NCBI GenBank assembly: GCA_003009755.1
Contig: PXUB01000037.1
Span: forward strand, 64,972-80,915
Direction of reading: 5' to 3'
Length of the DNA: 15,944 bases
From: Thermoplasmatales archaeon SW_10_69_26
GTDB lineage: Archaea > Thermoplasmatota > SW-10-69-26
Part shown: positions 1 to 15,840 of the stretch, in pieces
How positions within the stretch are numbered: position 1 is the first letter of the stretch
Layout of the letters: each line of letters starts with the position of its first letter
Translations under genes and position numbers: made by a program
The notes under the pieces: generated by a model
What the model saw: the letters and a program-made list of their open reading frames with translations, nothing else
Database searches by the model: none
What the model was told of the DNA's origin: nothing

Positions 1-18
1 CTGTCTCGTTAAGCAGGG

Positions 19-136
19 CCGCGAAGGACACGAAGGATCGCCAAGGCCACGAAGGGCCTGTGTACTCGCCGCCGGGCGGCTTTGTCACGGCAGCTGCTCC
101 CCGTTGTGCCCTGGCGTCCCCTCGCGTCCTTGGTGG
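19..136. repeat. Imperfect inverted repeat of ACGAAGG-type tracts
   Basis: The 5' flank before the sulfotransferase holds a purine-rich tract with repeated CGAAGG/CCAAGG units (19-50). A diverged inverted copy lies at 106-136. Aligned as reverse complements, about two thirds or more of ~31 positions match, including shared blocks AAGGAC and CGCCA. The spacer holds a small GC hairpin around 67-80 (GCCGCCGGGCGGC). I see no credible gene in 1-202. Tandem ACGAAGG-like tracts recur as dispersed repeats in many prokaryotic genomes as far as I recall, but I cannot count copies here. Whether this is a mobile repeat or a transcribed hairpin is not decidable from one copy. Confidence 0.5.
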
Positions 137-183
137 TCCCCCCGTTTCTTATCCTTACAGCGCGCCTGAAACCCGCCCCATAC

Positions 184-214: not shown

Positions 215-1114
215 ATGCCCGGGCGTTGGCCCAACGCCTTCATCGCCGGCACCCCCAAAGCCGGCACCACGTCCCTGTACCGCTACCTCGCCCAGCACCC
301 GGCCATCCACATGAGCGAGGAGAAGGAACCGCACTTCTTCGACGACGTCTTCCGCGACACCGACCCCGACACCGAGGCCCGCCGCCAGGCTACGGAGGCC
401 TACCTCGCCCTCTTCGCCGACGCCGAGGAACCGATCGTCGGCGAGGCCACCCCCGGCTACTTCTCCAAGCCCGGTGTCTTCGAGCGCATCGACGAACGCT
501 GCACGGACCCGCGCTTCGTCGTCTCCCTGCGGGACCCGATCGCCGCCATCCACTCCGGCTACCTCATGCGGGCCCGCCGGGGCAAGCAACGCATCGAGGA
601 CGAACCCGAGGGCTTCACCGAGCACGTCCGCACCTCCCTGGCCGCCGACCCCGGGTCCCGGGACCGCTACAACATCGAGGGTCGCTTCTACGGCACCCAC
701 TACGAGCGGTTCTGCTCCGTCTTCGAGGAGGACCGGATCCACCTCCTCACGCTCGACGAGCTCGGCGAGGACCCCCGCGGCGTGCTGCGCGACATCGCCC
801 GCTTCCTCGACGTCGACCCCGGGGCCGTCGACGCGATCGACCTCGACACCCGGCACAACCCCTTCGGCGTCCCCAGCAACGAGCTGTTCCGCTGGCTGTT
901 GACCAGCGATCTGCCTCGCCGGGTCGCCCGGCTCGTGCTCCCGGAACCGGTCCGCGTGTGGCTGGGCGAGCACGCCCTCCTCGAGAAGACCGAGAAACCG
1001 CCGATGGGCGAGGAACCTGTCGAGCTACTCGCCGACGAGTTCGAGCCCGAGATCACCAAGCTCGAGAAGCAGACCGGCCGCTCGTTCGACTCGCTGCGCG
1101 CGAGCTGGAGCTAG
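215..1114 (+). CDS. PAPS-dependent sulfotransferase (P-loop-like family)
   Basis: The 299-residue product is a cytosolic-type sulfotransferase that would transfer sulfate from PAPS to a hydroxyl or amine of a glycan or lipid acceptor. The 5'-phosphosulfate loop is GTPKAGTTSL (residues 12-21, Lys15). It is followed by KEPHFF at about 37-42, a motif typical of bacterial and archaeal members related to heparan-sulfate sulfotransferases. The 3'-phosphate-binding strand is VVSLRDP (about 102-108, Arg106), with a downstream Ser in IHSGY. The C-terminal half has the usual GRFYGTHYERF and FLDVDP segments. The ATG at 215 is preferred over the in-frame TTG at 203 because it starts directly before the first strand and fits a leaderless promoter. 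In archaea such enzymes can sulfate S-layer glycans or glycolipids; the acceptor here is unknown. The stop codon lies inside the left arm of the repeat element at 1111. Confidence 0.87.
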   Translation: MPGRWPNAFIAGTPKAGTTSLYRYLAQHPAIHMSEEKEPHFFDDVFRDTDPDTEARRQATEAYLALFADAEEPIVGEATPGYFSKPGVFERIDERCTDPRFVVSLRDPIAAIHSGYLMRARRGKQRIEDEPEGFTEHVRTSLAADPGSRDRYNIEGRFYGTHYERFCSVFEEDRIHLLTLDELGEDPRGVLRDIARFLDVDPGAVDAIDLDTRHNPFGVPSNELFRWLLTSDLPRRVARLVLPEPVRVWLGEHALLEKTEKPPMGEEPVELLADEFEPEITKLEKQTGRSFDSLRASWS

Positions 1115-1472
1115 ACTGCCGGACGTGTTTTGCTTACGCTCTCGCGCCGGTCTCGGGAGACCGGCCACGGTCTTCCGGGAGTACGGGCGCCAAGCCCGTG
1201 CGAATGAGCGAGGCAAAATCGCGGAGCCCGAGGAAGGAAACCCCCTGTGGGTTGTCGACGGAGGGCGACAACAAGATTGCCCGCCTCAGACCGGCGCCTG
1301 CACGCGAGGCCGGCCTCAGGCGGCGATGATTCGATCTTTGCAAGTTGTGAGGTTTCCAAGCGTTGTCGCCGTCGACATCGACGTAGCCTCCGGCTACTCC
1401 GTCGTCTCGGCTCCGCGCTTTCACCGCCTGAGGCCGAGCGAGAGCTTAACCCAAGCACAGCCGGCAGTCTAG
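1111..1472. repeat. Inverted-repeat-bounded structured element (MITE-like or structured RNA)
   Basis: Perfect 12-bp terminal inverted repeats (1111-1122 CTAGACTGCCGG; 1461-1472 CCGGCAGTCTAG) bound a 362-bp segment. Inward the repeats continue imperfectly for about 45 bases, including a second perfect 8-bp block (GCTCTCGC with its complement). Both termini end in CTAG, which could be a 4-bp or central TA target duplication. Inside are several hairpins: 1147-1164 (CCGGTCT/AGACCGG), 1181-1201 (GTACGGGC/GCCCGTGC), 1251-1272 (GTTGTCG/CGACAAC) and 1383-1397 (GTAGCC/GGCTAC). A 13-bp inverted pair lies at 1311-1323 and 1424-1436. No reading frame in it looks like protein. It fills most of the gap between two convergent genes. 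It could be a transposase-free miniature element or a folded non-coding RNA; I recognise no known RNA family. Confidence 0.55.
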
Positions 1473-6301: not shown

Positions 6302-6320
6302 GCCTGCCAGACACCGCGGA

Positions 6321-6330
6321 CCTTTTTAAG
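6321..6330 (-). promoter_or_regulatory. TATA box of maeB
   Basis: CTTAAAAAGG on the minus strand is the only strongly AT-rich patch in the 130-base gap before the divergent exported-protein operon. Its centre lies about 25 bases upstream of the maeB ATG (6301), which is archaeal TATA-to-TSS spacing with transcription starting at or next to the start codon. Because the box is nearly symmetrical, it could also drive rightward transcription with a leader of about 80 bases to the ATG at 6432. No separate TATA box is evident for that operon. Confidence 0.7.
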
Positions 6331-6431
6331 CGTTGCCAACCGCGCCCGGCCCACCCGCGTCCGGGAACGGTGCGGTCGCTGGCCCCCGCTTGCGGACAGC
6401 CTTCACGGGCACCAGCGACCACCGGGATCCG

Positions 6432-7523
6432 ATGCCTCACCGCGGCCTCGCCCTGTTGCTCGCCCTCGCGCTCGCCACCGTGACCGCCACGCCCGCCGCC
6501 GTGGGCGGCTCCTCGGCCCGCTCGAGCCCCGACGTGGTCGAGATCGACGCCGCCACCGGCGAGCTCGTCTCCGCGCCCGCCGACCCCGGCACGAACGTCA
6601 CCGTCCGCGTGCACGGGGTCCCGGCCGGCGAGACCGGGTTCACTCTCCACGGACCGCCGGGAGAGCTGTTCGTGAACCAGACCTCCCGCGCCGACGGCGT
6701 CGTCGAGTTCTGGGACGTCCCCGCCGGGCCCGGCACCTACGAGATCGAGACCACCCCAAGCGCGGACGCTGGGACGCTCTCCGTCGAGATCGTGTCCGAC
6801 GACTGCGCCGTGCCCACCGGCTGCCGCACGACGAGCGACTGGTGGTGCAGCTCCACCCGCTCGGAGAAGCTGGCCGACGAGATCCACTGGACGCCGCTGC
6901 TCGGTGTCAACAGCCCCTCGGATGGGCAAGCCGTCGCCTCCAGCGAGTGGTCGCGCACCGAGGCCCTGTTCGTCTCGCCCGGCTCGTGGGAGAGCCGCAC
7001 CCAGCACAGCGAACGCATCGAGGCCACCGACGGGGAAAGCTGGGGCTTCTACCGGCTCGCCAAATGGGGCATCTACGAGCGCACGACCGACCCCTGCTTC
7101 GGTGAACCCGAGACCACGCGCGAAGCCAAGGTGATCGACTGGACGCCTCGCGGTTACGTCTCGGAGACCTCGATCGAGCTGACCCACAACGACCACTACA
7201 CCGACGCCGACAACCTCATCAAGACGGGGAACAACGACGAGAGCACACTCGTCCACGACCTCCGGTACAAGATCAAGGACCGCGAACGCGAAGGCCCCAA
7301 CGAACGTGCCATCAAGAACGAGGAGATCACCGCGATCGCGGGCGGCGTCTCCGCCGGCACCCATTACGTCAGCTTCGACATCATCCGCTTCGAGCTCGCC
7401 CACGAGGAGACGATCTCGTACACGTACACCTTCCCGCAGAAGGGCAGCTGGGCCATCGACGAGCTGCGGGGCAGCGACGGCTGGGCCTTCTGCCGCCCGG
7501 CGGAGGCCGACTGCTCGGGGTGA
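6432..7523 (+). CDS. Exported protein of unknown function, gene 1 of a three-gene exported module
   Basis: The 363-residue product has a Sec-type signal peptide: Arg4, a Leu/Ala-rich core at 6-19, and a likely cleavage after an AXA-like site near 22-29. The mature N-terminal part (about 34-120) reads as a beta-sandwich or carboxypeptidase-regulatory-like fold (NVTVRVHGVPAGETGFTLHG, VVEFWDVPAGPGTYEIET). After it come about 240 residues that I do not recognise, rich in Trp, Glu, Thr and Asp. Six cysteines (125, 131, 139, 222, 354, 361) suit three disulfides in an exported domain. Possible N-glycosylation sequons occur at NVT (55) and NQT (82). No membrane anchor is visible at the C-terminus. 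The ATG at 6432 is chosen because it places the signal peptide at the N-terminus; an upstream in-frame TTG at 6333 would add a Pro/Gly-rich non-signal leader. Only 4 bases separate it from the next gene. Confidence 0.8.
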   Translation: MPHRGLALLLALALATVTATPAAVGGSSARSSPDVVEIDAATGELVSAPADPGTNVTVRVHGVPAGETGFTLHGPPGELFVNQTSRADGVVEFWDVPAGPGTYEIETTPSADAGTLSVEIVSDDCAVPTGCRTTSDWWCSSTRSEKLADEIHWTPLLGVNSPSDGQAVASSEWSRTEALFVSPGSWESRTQHSERIEATDGESWGFYRLAKWGIYERTTDPCFGEPETTREAKVIDWTPRGYVSETSIELTHNDHYTDADNLIKTGNNDESTLVHDLRYKIKDREREGPNERAIKNEEITAIAGGVSAGTHYVSFDIIRFELAHEETISYTYTFPQKGSWAIDELRGSDGWAFCRPAEADCSG

Positions 7524-7527
7524 TCGC

Positions 7528-8199
7528 ATGCTCGGACACGACCACGCCCTCCTCCCCGGCGGGTTAGGGCTGGGCCTCGTCGTCGCCAGCCTGGCGGGTC
7601 TGTTCACCTACGCCGGGTTCGGCCTCGCCGCCGACCCGACGACCGTCACGGCAGACGCCGGCGACCGGCACGAGCTCACGTTCGCCGACGGTGAACCCGA
7701 CCGCCAGCACCGCTCCTGGTCGACCCAGCTCGTCTTGGATGGCCCGCCCGAGGCCTACGAGATCTCCGTCGGCGTCCCCTACACCGTCGACCCCCAGGAA
7801 CCCGACGTCCTCGGCGCCGACGTGTGGACGAACGCGACCGTGAACGGCGAGACCGCCACCCAGCATCGCTACCGCCCCTCCACCACGACGGTCGCCCTCG
7901 TCGTGCCCGGTCCCCACCTCGATACCCCGTCCTTCCAGGAGGGGACCAACACGATCGCCGTCGAAACCACCGCCCACCGCCCGCCCGAGGCGGAGGGCTC
8001 GGCCCAGGTCACGATCGGACCCCTGCAGGCCGAAGCCCAGCCCCAGGACACCGACGGCGACGGCATCGTCGACACCGACCAACCGGTCCACGGTCTCCAC
8101 ACGGCGTGGGTGGCCGCCGCCGGGGCCCTCCTCGCGGGCGTCCCGGCCACGTACCTCCGTCGCCGAGCCCTCGACGACGGTGAGGAGGGACGAGGGTGA
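7528..8199 (+). CDS. Membrane-anchored protein of unknown function, gene 2 of the exported module
   Basis: The 223-residue product has an N-terminal hydrophobic segment (about 9-34, signal or anchor) and an extracytoplasmic beta-rich region of about 135 residues. Next is an Asp-rich loop DTDGDGIVDTD (174-184), like the calcium loops of thrombospondin type 3 or dockerin repeats. A second transmembrane helix (about 190-210) ends in an RRR stop-transfer motif and a short acidic cytosolic tail. It contains no cysteine, unlike its two neighbours. The topology suggests a surface protein held in the membrane, perhaps the anchor for the secreted products on either side. The ATG follows the stop of gene 1 by 4 bases, with GGGGTGAT just upstream as a weak ribosome binding site. 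Its stop overlaps the GTG start of gene 3. No known family is recognised. Confidence 0.78.
   Translation: MLGHDHALLPGGLGLGLVVASLAGLFTYAGFGLAADPTTVTADAGDRHELTFADGEPDRQHRSWSTQLVLDGPPEAYEISVGVPYTVDPQEPDVLGADVWTNATVNGETATQHRYRPSTTTVALVVPGPHLDTPSFQEGTNTIAVETTAHRPPEAEGSAQVTIGPLQAEAQPQDTDGDGIVDTDQPVHGLHTAWVAAAGALLAGVPATYLRRRALDDGEEGRG
8184..8188 (+). promoter_or_regulatory. Ribosome binding site for the 736-residue exported protein
   Basis: GGAGG inside the run TGAGGAGGGACGAGG lies 7 bases before GTG at 8196. It supports that GTG as the start although it overlaps the preceding stop codon (GTGA). This indicates translational coupling within the operon. Confidence 0.7.
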
Positions 8200-10406
8200 A
8201 CCGGATCCTGGCGATCGCCGTGTTGGCCACGGTCGCCATCGCCGGCCTCGCCGCCGGGCACCACCTCAGCGTCGGCGCCTCCCAGGGGAGGGTCGAGGTC
8301 TCCGAGCGGCCCGGCGATCCCTCCGTCGACCGCGAGCTGTACCACCGCGGCGTCGAGACCGACTGCCCGACGCCCCGGTTGGACCCGGCGGACCCCTCTC
8401 GCGGGAAGCAGGACCCGATGTGCGGCCGGCTGGTCTACCACGAGGGCACCGAATTCGAGCGCTGGGCGCCCGCCGACCAGGTGGTCTACGATCCGGTGGC
8501 CATCTTCGACGTCCAGCGCACCCACACCCTCGGCGTGGCCGCCCTGACGACGTGCCAGCCGTGGTGCCTGCAGCCATCCGTGACGTACCCGCTCTACGAC
8601 AGCGTGAACAATCTCGCCTACCGCGCCGGGCTCGCCCACAGCGACCGAGCCGACGAGGCCGATCACGGAACCCAGTCCTACGGAGGGGGCCTCCAACGGA
8701 CCCACGCCCTGACGATCGCCCGAGAGGATGCCGGCCTTGGCGAGGGCAACGGCTGGACGATCGTCTCCCACGACCGCAGCTTCGTCGGGATCCTCGAGGA
8801 CGGGGAGGGCTACCCAGTCGGGCCCCACAGACTGCGAGAGATCGCCGCCGACCGCAACCTCCCCGCCGCCGCCGAGCCGACCGTGTGCGGGTTCTCGCCC
8901 GACATCGACCTCGGTCACGACGGCTGCGAGCTCCCGTTCCGATGGGAAACCGAGGACACCAACCGGGGCGACAACCCCTGTCGCAGCCCCACCTACGTCT
9001 GTGCCCCCGGCGAGGGCAGCTGGCAGGCTCGCCTAACCTGCGCGCCCGCCCACGGCTGCGGCTCCCAGGCAAGCACGCTCACGGACTCGGACCGTCTCGA
9101 GAAGGACCAGGCCCACGACCTGGATCCTCGTCCCCAGGGGACCCGCCCGGTCGTCTGGCACTTCGTCGCCGCGCCCTCCGTCAGCGAGTGCGGCGGCCAC
9201 CGCGAACCCGGGTTCGATCCCTCCCCCGACGCCGCCAGCCGGGGGTTCCTCGGCCACGACCTCGACGTCTACACGACGCTCGACACCCGGCACGATGTCC
9301 ACGTCACCCCGCTCGTCCGCCACGAGACCGCCGCCGGCACCGCCAAGGTGGCCGATCTCGTTCACGAGGCTACGGATCCGGTCTGGCGGGAACCGGCGCC
9401 CGAGCCCAACCAGCCCGGCGAGCTCGGCGGCCTGCGGGACACCTCGGCCACCCACCCGATCGACCGCGACTGGCGGCACTGCCTGACCGTCGCCTCGCCG
9501 GAGACCCGCGACACTTTGGACCCCTGGGCCGACGTCGTCGACGCTCGCCTGGTGCCCGCCGACACCAGTGCCCACGTCGAGGGCACGCTGGAGGCGCCGG
9601 CCGGCACCGAGGGCCAGCGAGCCCGCACGGGCACCTACGTCCCCACCGGTCGCACCGTGTACGCGGCGGACACCGACGACGACGGCGACCGCGAGACCGC
9701 CGCCTGGGGGGACTGGTGGACGACCGACGGTGTGTACCCCGTCCTGTGGGACATGCACGTCACCCCCGAGGGCTGGCCCGACCCGGAGGCCGGCTGCCGC
9801 CTCCACGACAGCGGCATCATCCGTGAAGGCCAAACCCTGACCGAGGCCATGCTCGCCGCCGGCTACGAGGCCGGCACCGGGCTCGTCCAGGCGCTGGCGC
9901 TCGACGAACCCGTCGTCTGGACCCACCGACCCACCGGGACCGAGGTCCCCTTCCCCAGGGGCGGCGTGTTCGTGCTGGGCAGCCAAGCCGTCCACGAGCT
10001 CGGGCTCGGCCCATCCCCCCAGGCACCCATGGCCGAGCACGTCCGCACGGTCACGAACGCCGCCGCCGAGGCCGCCGGGCTCGCGGACCGGGACCCGATC
10101 GTGCTTCGCCAGGCCCTCGACGTCGACCCCGACGGCCAGACCGGATCCGACTGGCAACCCCAATGCGGGGAGCCCGCCGGCGGGTTCACCAGCCGATGGT
10201 CGCTCACCCGCGTCTGCACCGGCCAGGGCGAGTGCACGACGTCCACGGCCGTCACACGGCTCCTGTTCGAGATCTCGGACGGCGAGGACGCGTTCTTCGA
10301 CCACGCGACGTGGGCCCGGCCCTTCCCCGACGACCACACCGACGCCTTCCCCCGCGGCCAGCACAACTGGACCGACGTGGACCGGCTGGGCCCCGTGTCA
10401 CGGTGA
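8196..10406 (+). CDS. Large secreted cysteine-rich protein of unknown function, gene 3 of the exported module
   Basis: The 736-residue protein begins with a clear signal peptide (Arg3, hydrophobic 4-20, AAGHH). It has no later membrane helix, so it is probably released or held by partners. It contains 16 cysteines: 57, 76, 120, 124, 231, 244, 262, 269, 282, 288, 332, 429, 534, 657, 674 and 680. An even count is consistent with up to eight disulfides, and the cysteines are densest between 231 and 288. An acidic loop DTDDDGDRE (492-500) resembles a calcium-binding loop, and DVDPDGQTG (642-650) is similar. Trp and His are frequent. I recognise no catalytic signature; a large adhesin-like or extracellular enzyme scaffold is possible but unproven. 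The GTG start is supported by GGAGG at 8184 and the 4-base overlap with gene 2. Codon use and composition match neighbours, with no frameshift visible across 2.2 kb. Confidence 0.8.
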   Translation: MNRILAIAVLATVAIAGLAAGHHLSVGASQGRVEVSERPGDPSVDRELYHRGVETDCPTPRLDPADPSRGKQDPMCGRLVYHEGTEFERWAPADQVVYDPVAIFDVQRTHTLGVAALTTCQPWCLQPSVTYPLYDSVNNLAYRAGLAHSDRADEADHGTQSYGGGLQRTHALTIAREDAGLGEGNGWTIVSHDRSFVGILEDGEGYPVGPHRLREIAADRNLPAAAEPTVCGFSPDIDLGHDGCELPFRWETEDTNRGDNPCRSPTYVCAPGEGSWQARLTCAPAHGCGSQASTLTDSDRLEKDQAHDLDPRPQGTRPVVWHFVAAPSVSECGGHREPGFDPSPDAASRGFLGHDLDVYTTLDTRHDVHVTPLVRHETAAGTAKVADLVHEATDPVWREPAPEPNQPGELGGLRDTSATHPIDRDWRHCLTVASPETRDTLDPWADVVDARLVPADTSAHVEGTLEAPAGTEGQRARTGTYVPTGRTVYAADTDDDGDRETAAWGDWWTTDGVYPVLWDMHVTPEGWPDPEAGCRLHDSGIIREGQTLTEAMLAAGYEAGTGLVQALALDEPVVWTHRPTGTEVPFPRGGVFVLGSQAVHELGLGPSPQAPMAEHVRTVTNAAAEAAGLADRDPIVLRQALDVDPDGQTGSDWQPQCGEPAGGFTSRWSLTRVCTGQGECTTSTAVTRLLFEISDGEDAFFDHATWARPFPDDHTDAFPRGQHNWTDVDRLGPVSR

Positions 10407-10420
10407 CGCCACGACCGGGG

Positions 10421-10430
10421 CATCTTTGAG
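10421..10430 (+). promoter_or_regulatory. Probable TATA box of the threonine ammonia-lyase gene
   Basis: CATCTTTGAG is the only AT-rich patch between the preceding stop (10406) and the coding region. Its centre lies about 27 bases before GTG 10453, supporting that codon as a leaderless start rather than the TTG at 10426, which falls inside the box. Confidence 0.45.
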
Positions 10431-10452
10431 GGGGAGGCCGGCTGCCCGGCCC

Positions 10453-11694
10453 GTGTCCTTGCCCGTCGGGATCGGGGACGTCGAAGCGGCCCGTCAGACG
10501 CTGGCCGACCCCCTCCAGCGGGGCGTCGTCGAGCACACGCCCACGATGCAATCCGAGGCGCTGTCCGAGGCGACCGGCGCCGACGTGCACCTCAAGCTCG
10601 AGAACCTGCAACGCACCGGCGCGTTCAAGATCCGCGGCGCCTACAACCGGATCTCGGCCCTCGACGAGGCCAGCCGCGAAGCCGGCGTCGTGTGCGCCTC
10701 GGCCGGCAACCACGCCCAGGGCGTCGCGCTGGCCGCCCGCGACCAGGGCGTCGAGGCCGTCATCTGCATGCCCGAGGACGCCCCGATCTCCAAGGTGCAG
10801 GCCACGCGCGAGCTCGGCGCCGAGGTCGTGCTCGAGGGCCGCGACTACAACGAAGCCTACGACCGAGCCCGCGAGATCGAAGCCGACCGCGGCCTGGCCT
10901 TCGTGCACCCCTACGACGATCCCGACGTCGTCGCCGGCCAGGGCACGATCGGGCTCGAGATCCTCGAGGCGGTGCCCGACGTCGACACGGTGCTCGTGTG
11001 CGTGGGCGGCGGCGGCCTGCTGGCCGGCATCGCGACCGCGATCAAGGCCCAGCGCCCCGACACGCGCGTCATCGGTGTCGAACCGACGGGCGCCGACGCG
11101 CTGCACCGCTCGCTGGCGGCCGGCGAACGTGTGGAGCTGGACGCCGTCGACACGATCGCCGACGGCCTCGCGACGCGCTCGTGCGGGGAGATCGCCTTCC
11201 AGGTGGCCCGCGAGCACGTCGAACGCGTCGTCACGGTCGACGACGACGCGATCGCCGGCGCCATCTTGCACTTGCTCGAGGACGAGAAGAGCCTCGTCGA
11301 AGGGGCCGGCGCCGCCGCCGGGGCCGCCCTGCTCGCGGACACCCTCGACGTCGAAGGGGAGACCCTGGCCGCGCTCGTCAGCGGCGGCAACATCGACGTC
11401 ACCCTGCTCGACAACATCATCGACCGTGGCCTGGCGCGCTCGGGCCGGCACCTCGAGATCGAGGTCCCTCTCCCCGATCGTCCCGGTACGCTGCAAAAGC
11501 TGTTGGACGTGATCGCGGCCTCGCGGGCCAACATCCTGGAGATCGAACACAACCGCCGTCGGCTCGACGTGGCGCTCAACGTCGCGCTCGTCCGCGTCTC
11601 GCTGGAGACCCGCGGCCCCGAGCACGTCGACGAGCTGCTCGCGACGCTCGAGGACGCCGGCTACGACGCGCGCGTCCTCTCGCAATCGCGGTAG
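10453..11694 (+). CDS. ilvA: Threonine ammonia-lyase (threonine dehydratase) with C-terminal ACT domain
   Basis: The 413-residue PLP enzyme deaminates threonine to 2-oxobutyrate and ammonia, the first committed step toward isoleucine or the entry to threonine catabolism. The PLP lysine is in GAFKIRGAYNRI (Lys59 in this numbering). SAGNHAQG (83-90) and the glycine loop VGGGGLLAG (184-192), which binds the cofactor phosphate, are intact. EPTGADAL and DGLAT follow, and SGGNID near the end of the catalytic domain is typical of fold-type II dehydratases. The last ~70 residues form a single ACT-like domain (LEIEVPLPDRPGTLQKLLDVI, ANILEIEHNRR), the arrangement of the ~400-residue TdcB/IlvA forms found in archaea and many bacteria; it often carries allosteric control. 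GTG 10453 is preferred to TTG 10426 because of promoter spacing. Biosynthetic versus catabolic role cannot be told from sequence alone. Confidence 0.94.
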   Translation: MSLPVGIGDVEAARQTLADPLQRGVVEHTPTMQSEALSEATGADVHLKLENLQRTGAFKIRGAYNRISALDEASREAGVVCASAGNHAQGVALAARDQGVEAVICMPEDAPISKVQATRELGAEVVLEGRDYNEAYDRAREIEADRGLAFVHPYDDPDVVAGQGTIGLEILEAVPDVDTVLVCVGGGGLLAGIATAIKAQRPDTRVIGVEPTGADALHRSLAAGERVELDAVDTIADGLATRSCGEIAFQVAREHVERVVTVDDDAIAGAILHLLEDEKSLVEGAGAAAGAALLADTLDVEGETLAALVSGGNIDVTLLDNIIDRGLARSGRHLEIEVPLPDRPGTLQKLLDVIAASRANILEIEHNRRRLDVALNVALVRVSLETRGPEHVDELLATLEDAGYDARVLSQSR

Positions 11695-11713
11695 AAGAAG
11701 AGGGACGACGGCG

Positions 11714-11733
11714 GGCGGCCACCGAGGGCCGCC
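11714..11733. terminator. GC hairpin between convergent ilvA and small ORF
   Basis: GGCGGCC (11714-11720) and GGCCGCC (11727-11733) form a 7-bp stem with a 6-base loop in the 52-base gap between two convergent stop codons. There is no U-tract, so it is not a bacterial intrinsic terminator. It may mark or stabilise 3' ends of both transcripts. Confidence 0.3.
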
Positions 11734-11746
11734 GCGCCCAACCGGC

Positions 11747-11995
11747 TCAGATCGGGAAGAACTCGCAGTACACGTAGTCGACGAACTCATCGACCGTGTC
11801 GGAGGCGTACCGCTCGTGGTCCTGGTGGTCGAGGAGCGCCAGCGTGTGGCCGGCCTGATCCTGGGCGGACTCGAGCTCGCAGTCGGGGTTCGTGTCCGGC
11901 TTCGGCGGGAAGCCGGCGGCTGCCGCCGGCGCCACGGTCAATCCCAGCAGGCTCAACGCGATCGCGATCGCCGCGGTTCGTCGCAGGTCCGTCAT
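11747..11995 (-). CDS. Small exported protein of unknown function
   Basis: The 82-residue ORF encodes a textbook Sec signal peptide: MTDLRR, a hydrophobic core from about 7 to 20, and APAAAAG as probable cleavage region at 22-28. The mature peptide is only ~54 residues, strongly acidic, with two cysteines (39 and 77 approximately) that could form one disulfide. The composition (Asp/Glu/His-rich, ending VYCEFFPI) is unlike the Arg/Pro-rich shadows common here, so I judge it real. It lies alone on the minus strand, convergent with ilvA and divergent from fixA. No strong TATA box is evident; ATTGAAG near 12028 (minus strand) is a weak candidate. There is no ribosome binding site directly upstream. 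No family is recognised; an extracellular peptide or small envelope protein is possible. Confidence 0.6.
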   Translation of the reverse strand: MTDLRRTAAIAIALSLLGLTVAPAAAAGFPPKPDTNPDCELESAQDQAGHTLALLDHQDHERYASDTVDEFVDYVYCEFFPI

Positions 11996-12120
11996 GGTTG
12001 CCCACGGCGCGCAGCCTCGCTTCGGGACTTCAATGCTGTCGCGGTCCCGGTCGAACGGCGGGCGCCGGCTCAGGCGGGTCCTCGCCGCCGTCCACGGCGC
12101 AGACGTTGGGTCGGCCGAAC

Positions 12121-12131
12121 CAGTTTTAAGG
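12121..12131 (+). promoter_or_regulatory. TATA box of the fixABCX operon
   Basis: CAGTTTTAAGG, centred near 12127, is the strongest AT-rich element in the 163-base gap before fixA. It predicts a transcription start about 5 bases or fewer before the ATG at 12159, giving a nearly leaderless mRNA. This argues against starting at the in-frame ATG 12132, which would lie next to the box. The same TTTTAAG core appears before maeB. Confidence 0.7.
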
Positions 12132-12158
12132 ATGACGTTTCATCGGCCGCCGACGCCC

Positions 12159-12998: not shown

Positions 12999-14170
12999 TG
13001 GATTACGACGTGTACGAGGCCACCCAAGACGCCTCCGTCGGGGACATGTGGGTGTTCTGCGAGTCGCGCGACGGTCAGCTTCGCGACGTCTCGCTCGAGA
13101 TGCTGGGCAAGGCCCGCCGGATGATGGACGACTACAACGAGGAGTACGACGCCGACGAGAACGTCGTCGCCCTCGTGCTCGGCCAGGACGCCCGCGGCCT
13201 CGCCGGCGAATGCGTCCAGCACGGCGCCGACGTCGTCTACGTCGCCGAGGACGAACAGCTCGTTCCCTTCCGCCTGCTCCCCTACACCACGGTCGTCGCC
13301 AACGCGGCCCTGATGCGCGACGAGTACAAGGACTACGACAAGCCGCGCTACTTCCTGTTCCCCGCCACGCACAACGGCCGGGACCTGTCCGCGACCGTCG
13401 CCGGCAAGCTCGACACCGGGCTGGCCAGCGACTGCGACGACCTCTACATCGAGGACGCCGAGATCAAGCACCCGTTCAAGACCGAAGGCGAGGAGACGGT
13501 CTTCGAGCGGACCCTCCACATGGTCCGCCCCGACTTCAGCGGGTTCGAGCACTCCACGATCCTGTGCCTGGACAACCCGCACCGCGATTTCCACCCGCAG
13601 TCGGCCTCGGTGATCCCGGGCAGCTTCCCGGTGCCCGAACCCGACCGCGACCGCCTGCAAGAGGGACGCATCCTCCAGCTACCGGTCAAGTTCCGCGAGG
13701 GTGACCTCGACGTGACGGTCACCGAACGCGAGCACCTCGACGACGGCGTCGACCTCACCGACGACGAACGCGTCGTCGCCGTCGGCCGCGGCATCGGGGA
13801 GGACCCCACCGAGGGCCTCGAGCTCGGCCTCGAGCTCTCCGACGCCCTCGGCAGCGGGTTCGGCCTCTCCCGCGGCGTCATCACCGCCAGCTACAACGTC
13901 GACGGCAACGTCGAAAGCTACGTGGCCGAGGAGCGCCAGATCGGCGAGACCGGGCAGATCGTCGAGCCCGACGTCTACATTGCCGCCGGCATCAGCGGCG
14001 CCGTCCAACACAAGACCGGCATGGACGAGTCCGAGTTCATCTGTTCGATCAACACGGACCCCGAGGCGCCGATCAAGGACTTCTCCAACGTGTACATCCA
14101 CGGGGACCTGTTCGAGGTCGTTCCGCGGCTCATCGACGAGATCGAACGCATCCGGGAGGGAGACGAGTGA
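12998..14170 (+). CDS. fixB: Electron transfer flavoprotein alpha subunit, FixB type
   Basis: The 390-residue ETF alpha subunit binds the mobile FAD and shuttles electrons to FixC. The N-terminal domain (WVFCESRDGQLRDVSLEMLGKAR, 18-40) is the alpha-type Rossmann-like fold, with VALVLG and ADVVYVAED following. The C-terminal FAD domain has RVVAVGRGIG (258-267), GFGLSRGV (287-294), QIGETGQIVEPDVYIAAGISGAVQHKTGM (314-342) and INTDPEAPI (351-359), all hallmark ETF-alpha elements. The middle (about 160-250) is long, which explains a length above the usual ~320 residues of plain EtfA and closer to FixB. ATG 12998 is preferred over the preceding TTG because it sits 6 bases after GAAGGGGGG and overlaps the fixA stop. 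Its own stop overlaps the GTG of fixCX by three bases, indicating tight coupling. Confidence 0.93.
   Translation: MDYDVYEATQDASVGDMWVFCESRDGQLRDVSLEMLGKARRMMDDYNEEYDADENVVALVLGQDARGLAGECVQHGADVVYVAEDEQLVPFRLLPYTTVVANAALMRDEYKDYDKPRYFLFPATHNGRDLSATVAGKLDTGLASDCDDLYIEDAEIKHPFKTEGEETVFERTLHMVRPDFSGFEHSTILCLDNPHRDFHPQSASVIPGSFPVPEPDRDRLQEGRILQLPVKFREGDLDVTVTEREHLDDGVDLTDDERVVAVGRGIGEDPTEGLELGLELSDALGSGFGLSRGVITASYNVDGNVESYVAEERQIGETGQIVEPDVYIAAGISGAVQHKTGMDESEFICSINTDPEAPIKDFSNVYIHGDLFEVVPRLIDEIERIREGDE
14154..14160 (+). promoter_or_regulatory. Ribosome binding site deciding the GTG start of fixCX
   Basis: GGGAGGG lies 6 bases before GTG 14167, which overlaps the fixB stop codon as GTGA. This strong Shine-Dalgarno match supports GTG as the start. 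Confidence 0.7.
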
Positions 14171-15840
14171 CCGAGCGCTACGAGGCCGTGGTCGTCGGAG
14201 CCGGACCCTCCGGCCTGGCGACCGCTCTGGAACTGGCACGCCAAGACGTGGAGACGCTCGTCCTCGAACGGGGCAAGTTCCCCGGCTCGAAGAACGCCAC
14301 CGGCGGCATCATCTACGGGCAGACGAACACCGAGCACAACCTCGACGACGTCGTGCCCGACCTCCACGAGAACGCGCCGCTGGAACGCCCGATCGACGGG
14401 TACGAGTTCCACTGCATGGCGAACGAGAAGGTCCAAAGCTTCGACCTGACGGACCTCCACCAACACAACCACAAGTGGAGCTACACCGTGCTGCGCTCCA
14501 GGTTCGACCGCTGGCTCGGCGAGCGCGCCCACGAGGCGTGCCGCGAAGCCGGTGGTGGCCTGCTTTCCGACGTGCGCGTCAACGGCCCCCTCGTCGAGAA
14601 CGGCGAGATCGTCGGCGTCGAGACCGAGGAGCTGGACCCGATCCGCGCCGACATGGTCGTCGCCGCCGACGGTGCCACCAGCGAGATGGTGCGCCAGGCC
14701 GGCCTGCGCGACTGGGAGGAGCCCGAGGACTGGTTCCAGGGCGTCAAGGTCGTGCTCGACGTCCCCGAGGACCTGATCGAGGAGAACTTCGACCTCGACG
14801 ACGAGGGCGAGGCCCACCTGTTCGCCGGCAACATCTTCGAAGGCGTGCGCGGCGGCGGGTTCCTGTACACCAACGACGACACGCTGTCGATCGGCACCGT
14901 GTTCCATCTCGACTCCCTGGCCGAGAACGGCACCGAACCCCACCGCCTGATGGACCGCCTGCTCGAGCATCCGCTGGTCCAGGACTGGGTCGGCCCGGAC
15001 GCCGAGGAGGTCGAGTACTCGGCCAAGCTCATCCCCGACGGCAAGAAGATGCTCGTCGACCAGCCCTACCGCGGCCGGATGGTCGCGGTCGGCGACGCCG
15101 CCGGGCAGCTGCAAGCCCAGGGCCCGATCATCAAGGGCATGAACCTCGGCATCTCCGCCGGCATCCTCGCCGGGCGCTCCTTCGCCGAGGCCAAGGCCAA
15201 GAACGCTCCCGAGACCGTCGGCGAGCGCTACCACGAGGCCCTGCAGGACAGCTACATCCCGACCTCGGTCCGGCCCTCCAGCTACGAGATCGCTGCCTCC
15301 ACGAGCGAGAACGAGTTCGTGAACGGCCTGTTGGAGAGCTTCGCCCGCTCGTGGTTGGGCCGCAAGCTCATCGGCTCCGGCGTCGGCCAAGCCCGCCTGG
15401 AATCGATGATGAACAGCCCGTCCCTGATGGCCAGCGCGCCCGACATCCGGTTCAGCTACGTCACGCTGCCGGAGGTCATCGCCGAGGAAGCCGGCGAGCC
15501 CGTGCACGGCCCGCCCGAAGGCGTCGTGTTCGAGCCGCGCAGCCTCGACGACCGCATCGGTGATCTCACCTACGACGTCGACGCCGGCAACCCGCACATC
15601 GAGCTGCTGGACGACCGGCCCGAGATCTCCGCGACCGCCGTCCACACGTGCCCGGTCAGCGACCGCGAGATCTCCCGCGGCTGCTACCGGTTCGAAACGC
15701 GCAAGGCCAACGGCGGCAAGGAGCGCTTCGTCGCCCTCGACACCCAACCCTGCGTCGAGTGCGGCACCTGCGCCATCGTCGCCGACACCGACTGGGACCA
15801 TCCCAGAGGTGGGAAGGGCGTCGAATACGAGTACGGGTGA
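14167..15840 (+). CDS. fixC: FixC-FixX fusion: ETF-quinone oxidoreductase-like flavoprotein with C-terminal ferredoxin-like domain
   Basis: The 557-residue product joins FixC and FixX in one chain. The N-terminus is a GxGxxG FAD-binding fold (VVVGAGPSGLATALELARQ, 8-26), followed by PGSKNATGGIIYG and RSRFDRWLG, typical of FixC and ETF-quinone oxidoreductase. The second FAD motif is GRMVAVGDAAGQLQAQGPIIKGMNLGI (about 305-331). From about 485 the FixX-like domain has Cys495 (HTCPV) and Cys529-X-X-Cys532-X-X-Cys535 (CVECGTC), then WDHPRGGKGVEYEYG, retaining the four cysteines expected for one [4Fe-4S] cluster plus an extra Cys506. The family oxidises reduced ETF and passes electrons to membrane quinone; in bifurcating FixABCX, ferredoxin is co-reduced. 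The fused layout resembles mitochondrial ETF-QO more than the separate E. coli FixC and FixX. No nif genes are near, so a nitrogen fixation role is not indicated. Confidence 0.93.
   Translation: MTERYEAVVVGAGPSGLATALELARQDVETLVLERGKFPGSKNATGGIIYGQTNTEHNLDDVVPDLHENAPLERPIDGYEFHCMANEKVQSFDLTDLHQHNHKWSYTVLRSRFDRWLGERAHEACREAGGGLLSDVRVNGPLVENGEIVGVETEELDPIRADMVVAADGATSEMVRQAGLRDWEEPEDWFQGVKVVLDVPEDLIEENFDLDDEGEAHLFAGNIFEGVRGGGFLYTNDDTLSIGTVFHLDSLAENGTEPHRLMDRLLEHPLVQDWVGPDAEEVEYSAKLIPDGKKMLVDQPYRGRMVAVGDAAGQLQAQGPIIKGMNLGISAGILAGRSFAEAKAKNAPETVGERYHEALQDSYIPTSVRPSSYEIAASTSENEFVNGLLESFARSWLGRKLIGSGVGQARLESMMNSPSLMASAPDIRFSYVTLPEVIAEEAGEPVHGPPEGVVFEPRSLDDRIGDLTYDVDAGNPHIELLDDRPEISATAVHTCPVSDREISRGCYRFETRKANGGKERFVALDTQPCVECGTCAIVADTDWDHPRGGKGVEYEYG

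Follow-up and report, generated by a model that had tools for sequence, protein, structure and literature searches.

A new lineage-restricted family of secreted proteins includes the third product of a predicted three-gene operon in Thermoplasmatales archaeon SW_10_69_26

Do three consecutive genes for exported proteins of no recognisable family encode a cell-surface complex, as an initial annotation of this locus proposed, and how widely are the genes and their order shared? The locus lies in a window of 15,944 nucleotides (the whole stretch analysed here) of contig PXUB01000037.1, and its layout is as follows.

6302..12158: 5,857-bp block holding the genes for products 1-3, ilvA and an 82-aa ORF, between the malic enzyme gene and etfB
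6323..6330, + strand: TATA-like box TTTTTAAG, 8/8 against the archaeal TATA-type consensus
6432..7523, + strand: gene 1; product 1, 363 aa, exported, 6 Cys, residues ~31-110 Ig/filamin-like
7528..8199, + strand: gene 2; product 2, 223 aa, exported, 0 Cys, putative C-terminal membrane anchor
8196..10406, + strand: gene 3, GTG start; product 3, 736 aa, secreted, 16 Cys
10453..11694, + strand: ilvA-type threonine ammonia-lyase (TIGR01127, E 8.7e-151), 46 bp past gene 3

Genes 1 and 2 are separated by a 4-nt gap (7524-7527) and genes 2 and 3 overlap by 4 nt (8196-8199). A promoter-box scan found no TATA-like box as good as TTTTTAAG upstream of gene 2, gene 3 or ilvA, and this spacing, together with a promoter-like box before gene 1 only, argues for the single operon that had been proposed. 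Gene 1 (box at -109) shares this box with the malic-enzyme gene, which is transcribed divergently from the opposite strand (box at -29). All three genes were chosen by codon-usage scoring that was trained on window genes, genes 1 and 3 among them. As ilvA begins 46 bp after gene 3 and is preceded by a weak promoter-like box only (CTTTGAGG at -29), it is a possible fourth operon gene and may be co-transcribed with genes 1-3.

In the class relative G004, the malic enzyme gene and etfB are adjacent, 66 bp apart (L048:2573/2640), compared with 5,857 bp here. Because G004 also lacks products 1-3, a gain is the simpler reading, and the block looks as if it was gained in the present genome, with the thin support of one compared genome. 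The same-family genome G001 carries ilvA (66% identical) with other neighbours. Exported, membrane-anchored pairs, homologous to each other, lie directly upstream of ilvA in G006 (L073:7609-9409) and G003 (L074:9427-11134); the G006 pair was considered as kin of products 1 and 2 and rejected, as it has no sequence similarity to them. Elsewhere in the window, 14167-15840 (+ strand) encodes a FixC-type oxidoreductase with a C-terminal FixX-like ferredoxin in one protein (NF007542 over residues 5-345, NF011993 over residues 457-557).

The annotated cysteine counts (six, none and sixteen in products 1, 2 and 3) were reproduced, as was the absence of a recognisable family: Pfam, NCBIfam, PHROGs and PADLOC gave no match for any of the three, beyond chance Pfam and NCBIfam matches for product 2. 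Predicted N-terminal export signals are clear in products 1 and 3; in product 2 the export segment is a hydrophobic stretch (residues 7-35) without basic n-region residues.

The beta-sandwich-like stretch noted in product 1 appears to be a weak Ig/filamin-like region. A phmmer match to filamin A covers residues 58-108 (E 0.0011), and a single-sequence AlphaFold model, usable for residues 31-110 only, predicts strands only over residues ~31-110 (pLDDT 60-72), with Ig and filamin folds as the best Foldseek matches in a weak list (E 0.025 or worse). Product 2 ends in the hydrophobic segment TAWVAAAGALLAGVPATYL followed by RRR, which is the pattern of the annotated membrane anchor; the anchor is plausible, but with a Kyte-Doolittle hydrophobicity of 1.39 over 19 residues and 1.64 over 16 the segment is modest. 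Products 1 and 2 are single-copy in their own genome, and no convincing relative of product 2 was found.

A search of the archaeon's own genome (2.82 Mb, 49 contigs, 95% complete) revealed that product 3 is one of 11 paralogs on ten contigs. EF-1-alpha and RFC mark the genome as archaeal. The ten further copies lie on nine other contigs (C3, C5, C7, C19, C20, C22, C41, C42 with two copies, and C47) and match over most of their length, product 3 finding them with E values down to 4e-69. The paralogs are pairwise ~28-50% identical, the two C42 copies being the closest, and the mean column identity of their alignment (A1) is 42%. The window copy and the C22 copy are the most divergent members; their pairing in the tree is weak (72/60) and was flagged as unreliable, a possible long-branch join. 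The family accounts for ~0.9% of the genome, and its members measure ~675-830 aa in copies that are not visibly truncated. The family profile does not match product 1 or product 2, which were thus rejected as members.

Several copies are damaged. At L026:7212-7501 lies a remnant that contains a stop and shares 83% DNA identity with the 3' end of the C41 copy; it shows that duplication was followed by decay. In the second C42 copy the signal peptide and the body are in different frames. In the C7 copy, a repeat element with an internal N-run has removed the start of the signal peptide. Like the remnant, these defects are signs of duplicated copies decaying, or partly of errors in the assembly.

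The repeat element, one copy of which abuts and truncates the C7 signal peptide, has imperfect ~40-bp terminal inverted repeats (5'-TAGACTGCCGG...) and occurs at window 1111-1472, L028:8289-8644 and L024:10838-11040. It is MITE-like, with dozens of copies in the genome, often at contig ends, and none in six class relatives. A second repeat of ~165 bp, with sharp ends and unrelated to the first, lies at window 1-165, where no Rfam match was found, and at L028:8724-8897, L030:10764-10929, L027:8193-8361, L027:17464-17631 and L029:5010-5175; at least 41 copies exist, mostly at 91-96% identity, and three of them are within ~350 bp of family members. A link between the short repeats and the family copies was considered and left as unproven: repeats occur within ~350 bp of 4 of 10 loci, yet dozens exist and avoid genes.

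Two features of product 3 were followed through alignment A1.

8196..8258, + strand: signal peptide of product 3, from alignment A1
9669..9695, + strand: loop DTDDDGDRE of product 3; D-x-[DNE]-D-D-G-x-[YR]-[DE] in register in 11/11 paralogs

In the alignment, a family-wide Ala or Gly marks the likely signal cleavage site; it precedes the motif x-H-[LF]-S-x-G, with which the mature protein is predicted to begin in most copies. Cysteine numbers are even throughout the family (12, 14 or 16): optional pairs add to ten core columns, and the core is complete in every copy that is not N-terminally truncated, product 3 included. The optional cysteines come and go together: C120 and C124 are jointly missing in one member (the C3 copy), C674 and C680 in two (C19 and C22), and members with C282 have exactly one extra cysteine within ~7 residues, whereas members without C282 have none. 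Even counts and joint gain and loss make up the pattern left behind by disulfide pairs, and this family-wide pairing supports the disulfide bonding predicted for product 3.

The Asp-rich loops named in the initial annotation are both present, that of product 3 as listed above and that of product 2 close to its C-terminus.

8047..8073, + strand: loop DTDGDGIVD of product 2, DxDxDGxxD type, a putative Ca2+ loop, just before the anchor

All family members are acidic (pI 4.05-4.72), have no hydrophobic stretch besides the signal peptide on the Kyte-Doolittle scale, and share ~60 invariant columns, His, Asp and Glu among them. Product 3 had no Pfam or NCBIfam match, and its profile gave one chance match against the PDB (E 1.3). 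A single-sequence AlphaFold model of product 3 was uninformative (mean pLDDT 33) and no fold was assigned.

Outside this genome, products 1-3 are encoded in none of six same-class relatives. With product 3 as query, no homologue was found in 60 relatives; with the more central C41 copy, none that was convincing was found in 97 phylum genomes, where two matches reached E 0.05; and the family profile, scored against at most two candidates per genome, found no convincing relative in 389 phylum genomes. Two scans with two short patterns each recovered no family member from 84,980 species genomes (GTDB), nor did two scans of viral contigs, and plasmids and phages held no relative of the family. A phage or defence protein was rejected on the lack of PHROGs and PADLOC matches and of phage or plasmid relatives. 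G001, the only same-family genome (75% complete), has no family member, and it is very unlikely that incompleteness would hide all of eleven dispersed copies. A literature search found no paper on the family.

The gene order of the window recurs neither in the six class relatives nor at the ten other paralog loci, so the conserved three-gene complex implied by the initial annotation is not supported; loss of the gene order in relatives is an outcome that the annotation had itself named as speaking against it. At those ten loci, products 1 and 2 are not found beside the product 3 paralogs, no neighbour is common to the loci, and most paralogs stand alone. The C19 copy has hydrolase and rhomboid protease genes upstream. 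Also upstream of the protease gene and the C19 copy lies the gene for an exported 198-aa protein with 9 Cys and no Pfam match (L022:6432-7028, + strand). Genes for exported proteins also lie close to the C19 copy and to the C5 copy; they were considered as kin of products 1 and 2 and set aside for lack of resemblance. The start of the C22 copy overlaps by one base the end of a gene whose product, over its first ~265 aa, is an EfeU/FTR1 iron permease (Pfam FTR1, E 6.9e-33; NCBIfam EfeU, E 1.9e-52). The permease domain is fused to ~490 residues without a Pfam match (L025:9949-12225, - strand), and the fusion protein is not matched by the product 3 family profile.

The real finding at this locus is a new lineage-restricted secreted family that contains product 3. 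Our preferred reading, held with about even confidence, is that of a disulfide-cross-linked, probably Ca2+-stabilised surface family shaped by duplication and decay, whose window copy came to share an operon with product 2, a possible tether. Duplication, divergence and decay would have produced the 11 dispersed copies of the product 3 family, and its members would most likely be ectodomains, structural or ligand-binding, located on the cell surface or close to it. Paired cysteines, a metal-type loop and secretion suggest a rigid extracellular domain, and copies that diverged widely while keeping their frame are what would be expected of surface or binding proteins with differing partners. The window copy may have been recruited into an operon with product 1 (Ig-like, exported) and product 2 (anchored), and product 2 might tether product 3, and perhaps also product 1, at the membrane. 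We infer disulfides, Ca2+ binding, surface location and tethering from these features. Several observations count against this reading: the association of product 3 with products 1 and 2 is seen at the window locus only, the product 2 anchor is of modest hydrophobicity, the AlphaFold model of product 3 gives no fold, and the ~60 invariant columns with their His, Asp and Glu residues could also belong to an enzyme. The comparison within the same family drew on a single genome, 75% complete.

The closest reading to the original proposal is an obligate surface complex of products 1-3, with other family members using other partners, and we consider it unlikely. The tight spacing, the one shared promoter-like box and the export of all three products are in its favour, as are the overlap of the C22 copy with the gene upstream of it and the position of the C19 copy behind other same-strand genes. 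Against it, products 1 and 2 each occur once in the genome and are missing from the relatives, and most paralogs are solitary. What survives of the proposed cell-surface complex is thus the predicted single transcription unit and the export of its products, but not conservation of the three-gene set.

The C22 locus raises the possibility that the family consists of extracellular metal-capture partners, for iron or Ca2+, that hand metal to a membrane transporter, with product 2 as the membrane part. Besides the overlap with the EfeU/FTR1 permease gene, the invariant Asp-rich loop and the weak tree pairing (72/60) of the window member with C22 would fit. However, a transporter lies beside only 1 of 11 members, no FTR1-like gene was seen alongside the window locus, and product 2 itself is not a transporter. 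The pairing in the tree unites two long branches and was flagged as unreliable, and neither EfeO nor EfeB nor a multicopper oxidase was matched by the members; we regard metal capture as distinctly improbable. The same low weight is given to secreted enzymes, such as polymer hydrolases, with copies that differ in substrate. The ~60 invariant columns, which include H322, H354, D357, E403, D442 and D449 and extend over the whole protein, could be read in this way, but the conserved Asp and Cys residues look structural, no enzyme in Pfam, NCBIfam or the PDB is consistently similar, and the members are not clustered with catabolic genes.

Returning to the disulfide-cross-linked surface family, its most far-reaching form is a fold not seen before, in secreted proteins of ~675-830 aa with five invariant core disulfides and a metal loop, that arose and multiplied in one genus of a high-GC archaeal class and makes up much of its surface or extracellular matrix; this we put forward as a long shot. 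Neither the profile libraries nor the PDB nor the species genomes scanned contain the family; should it prove to be a new disulfide-rich surface module, it would be a case of an archaeal lineage inventing and multiplying its own surface proteins. The invariant metal-type loop and the cysteines that come and go in pairs offer direct tests. The locus is also a reminder that genes packed closely into one operon do not always encode a conserved complex.

Compared with known systems, the all-beta, low-confidence model of product 1 and its best matches weakly resemble Ig-like and filamin-type beta-sandwich domains, whereas product 1 stays under every Pfam threshold and its Cys-bearing two thirds carry no domain assignment. 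The loops of product 3 (D-x-[DNE]-D-D-G-x-[YR]-[DE]) and product 2 (DTDGDGIVD) are like the DxDxDG Ca2+ loops of dockerin, EF-hand-like and thrombospondin type 3 proteins; unlike those proteins, each protein here has a single loop, at a conserved alignment position, instead of tandem repeats, and neither product 2 nor product 3 nor any of the paralogs has a Pfam match to dockerin, EF-hand or thrombospondin type 3. The C22 paralog recalls the EfeU/FTR1 partners EfeO and EfeB in that its gene overlaps an FTR1-domain gene, but the product 3 family has no sequence relation to them and the other ten loci showed no FTR1 gene. Lineage-specific expansions of secreted orphan proteins are characterised by many divergent, dispersed copies with signal peptides, a conserved cysteine framework and decayed copies. 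The product 3 family differs from such expansions in its lack of named relatives, its archaeal host and its size (~675-830 aa), which is large for a cysteine-paired family, and resembles them in its dispersed and divergent copies, signal peptides, cysteine framework and decayed copies.
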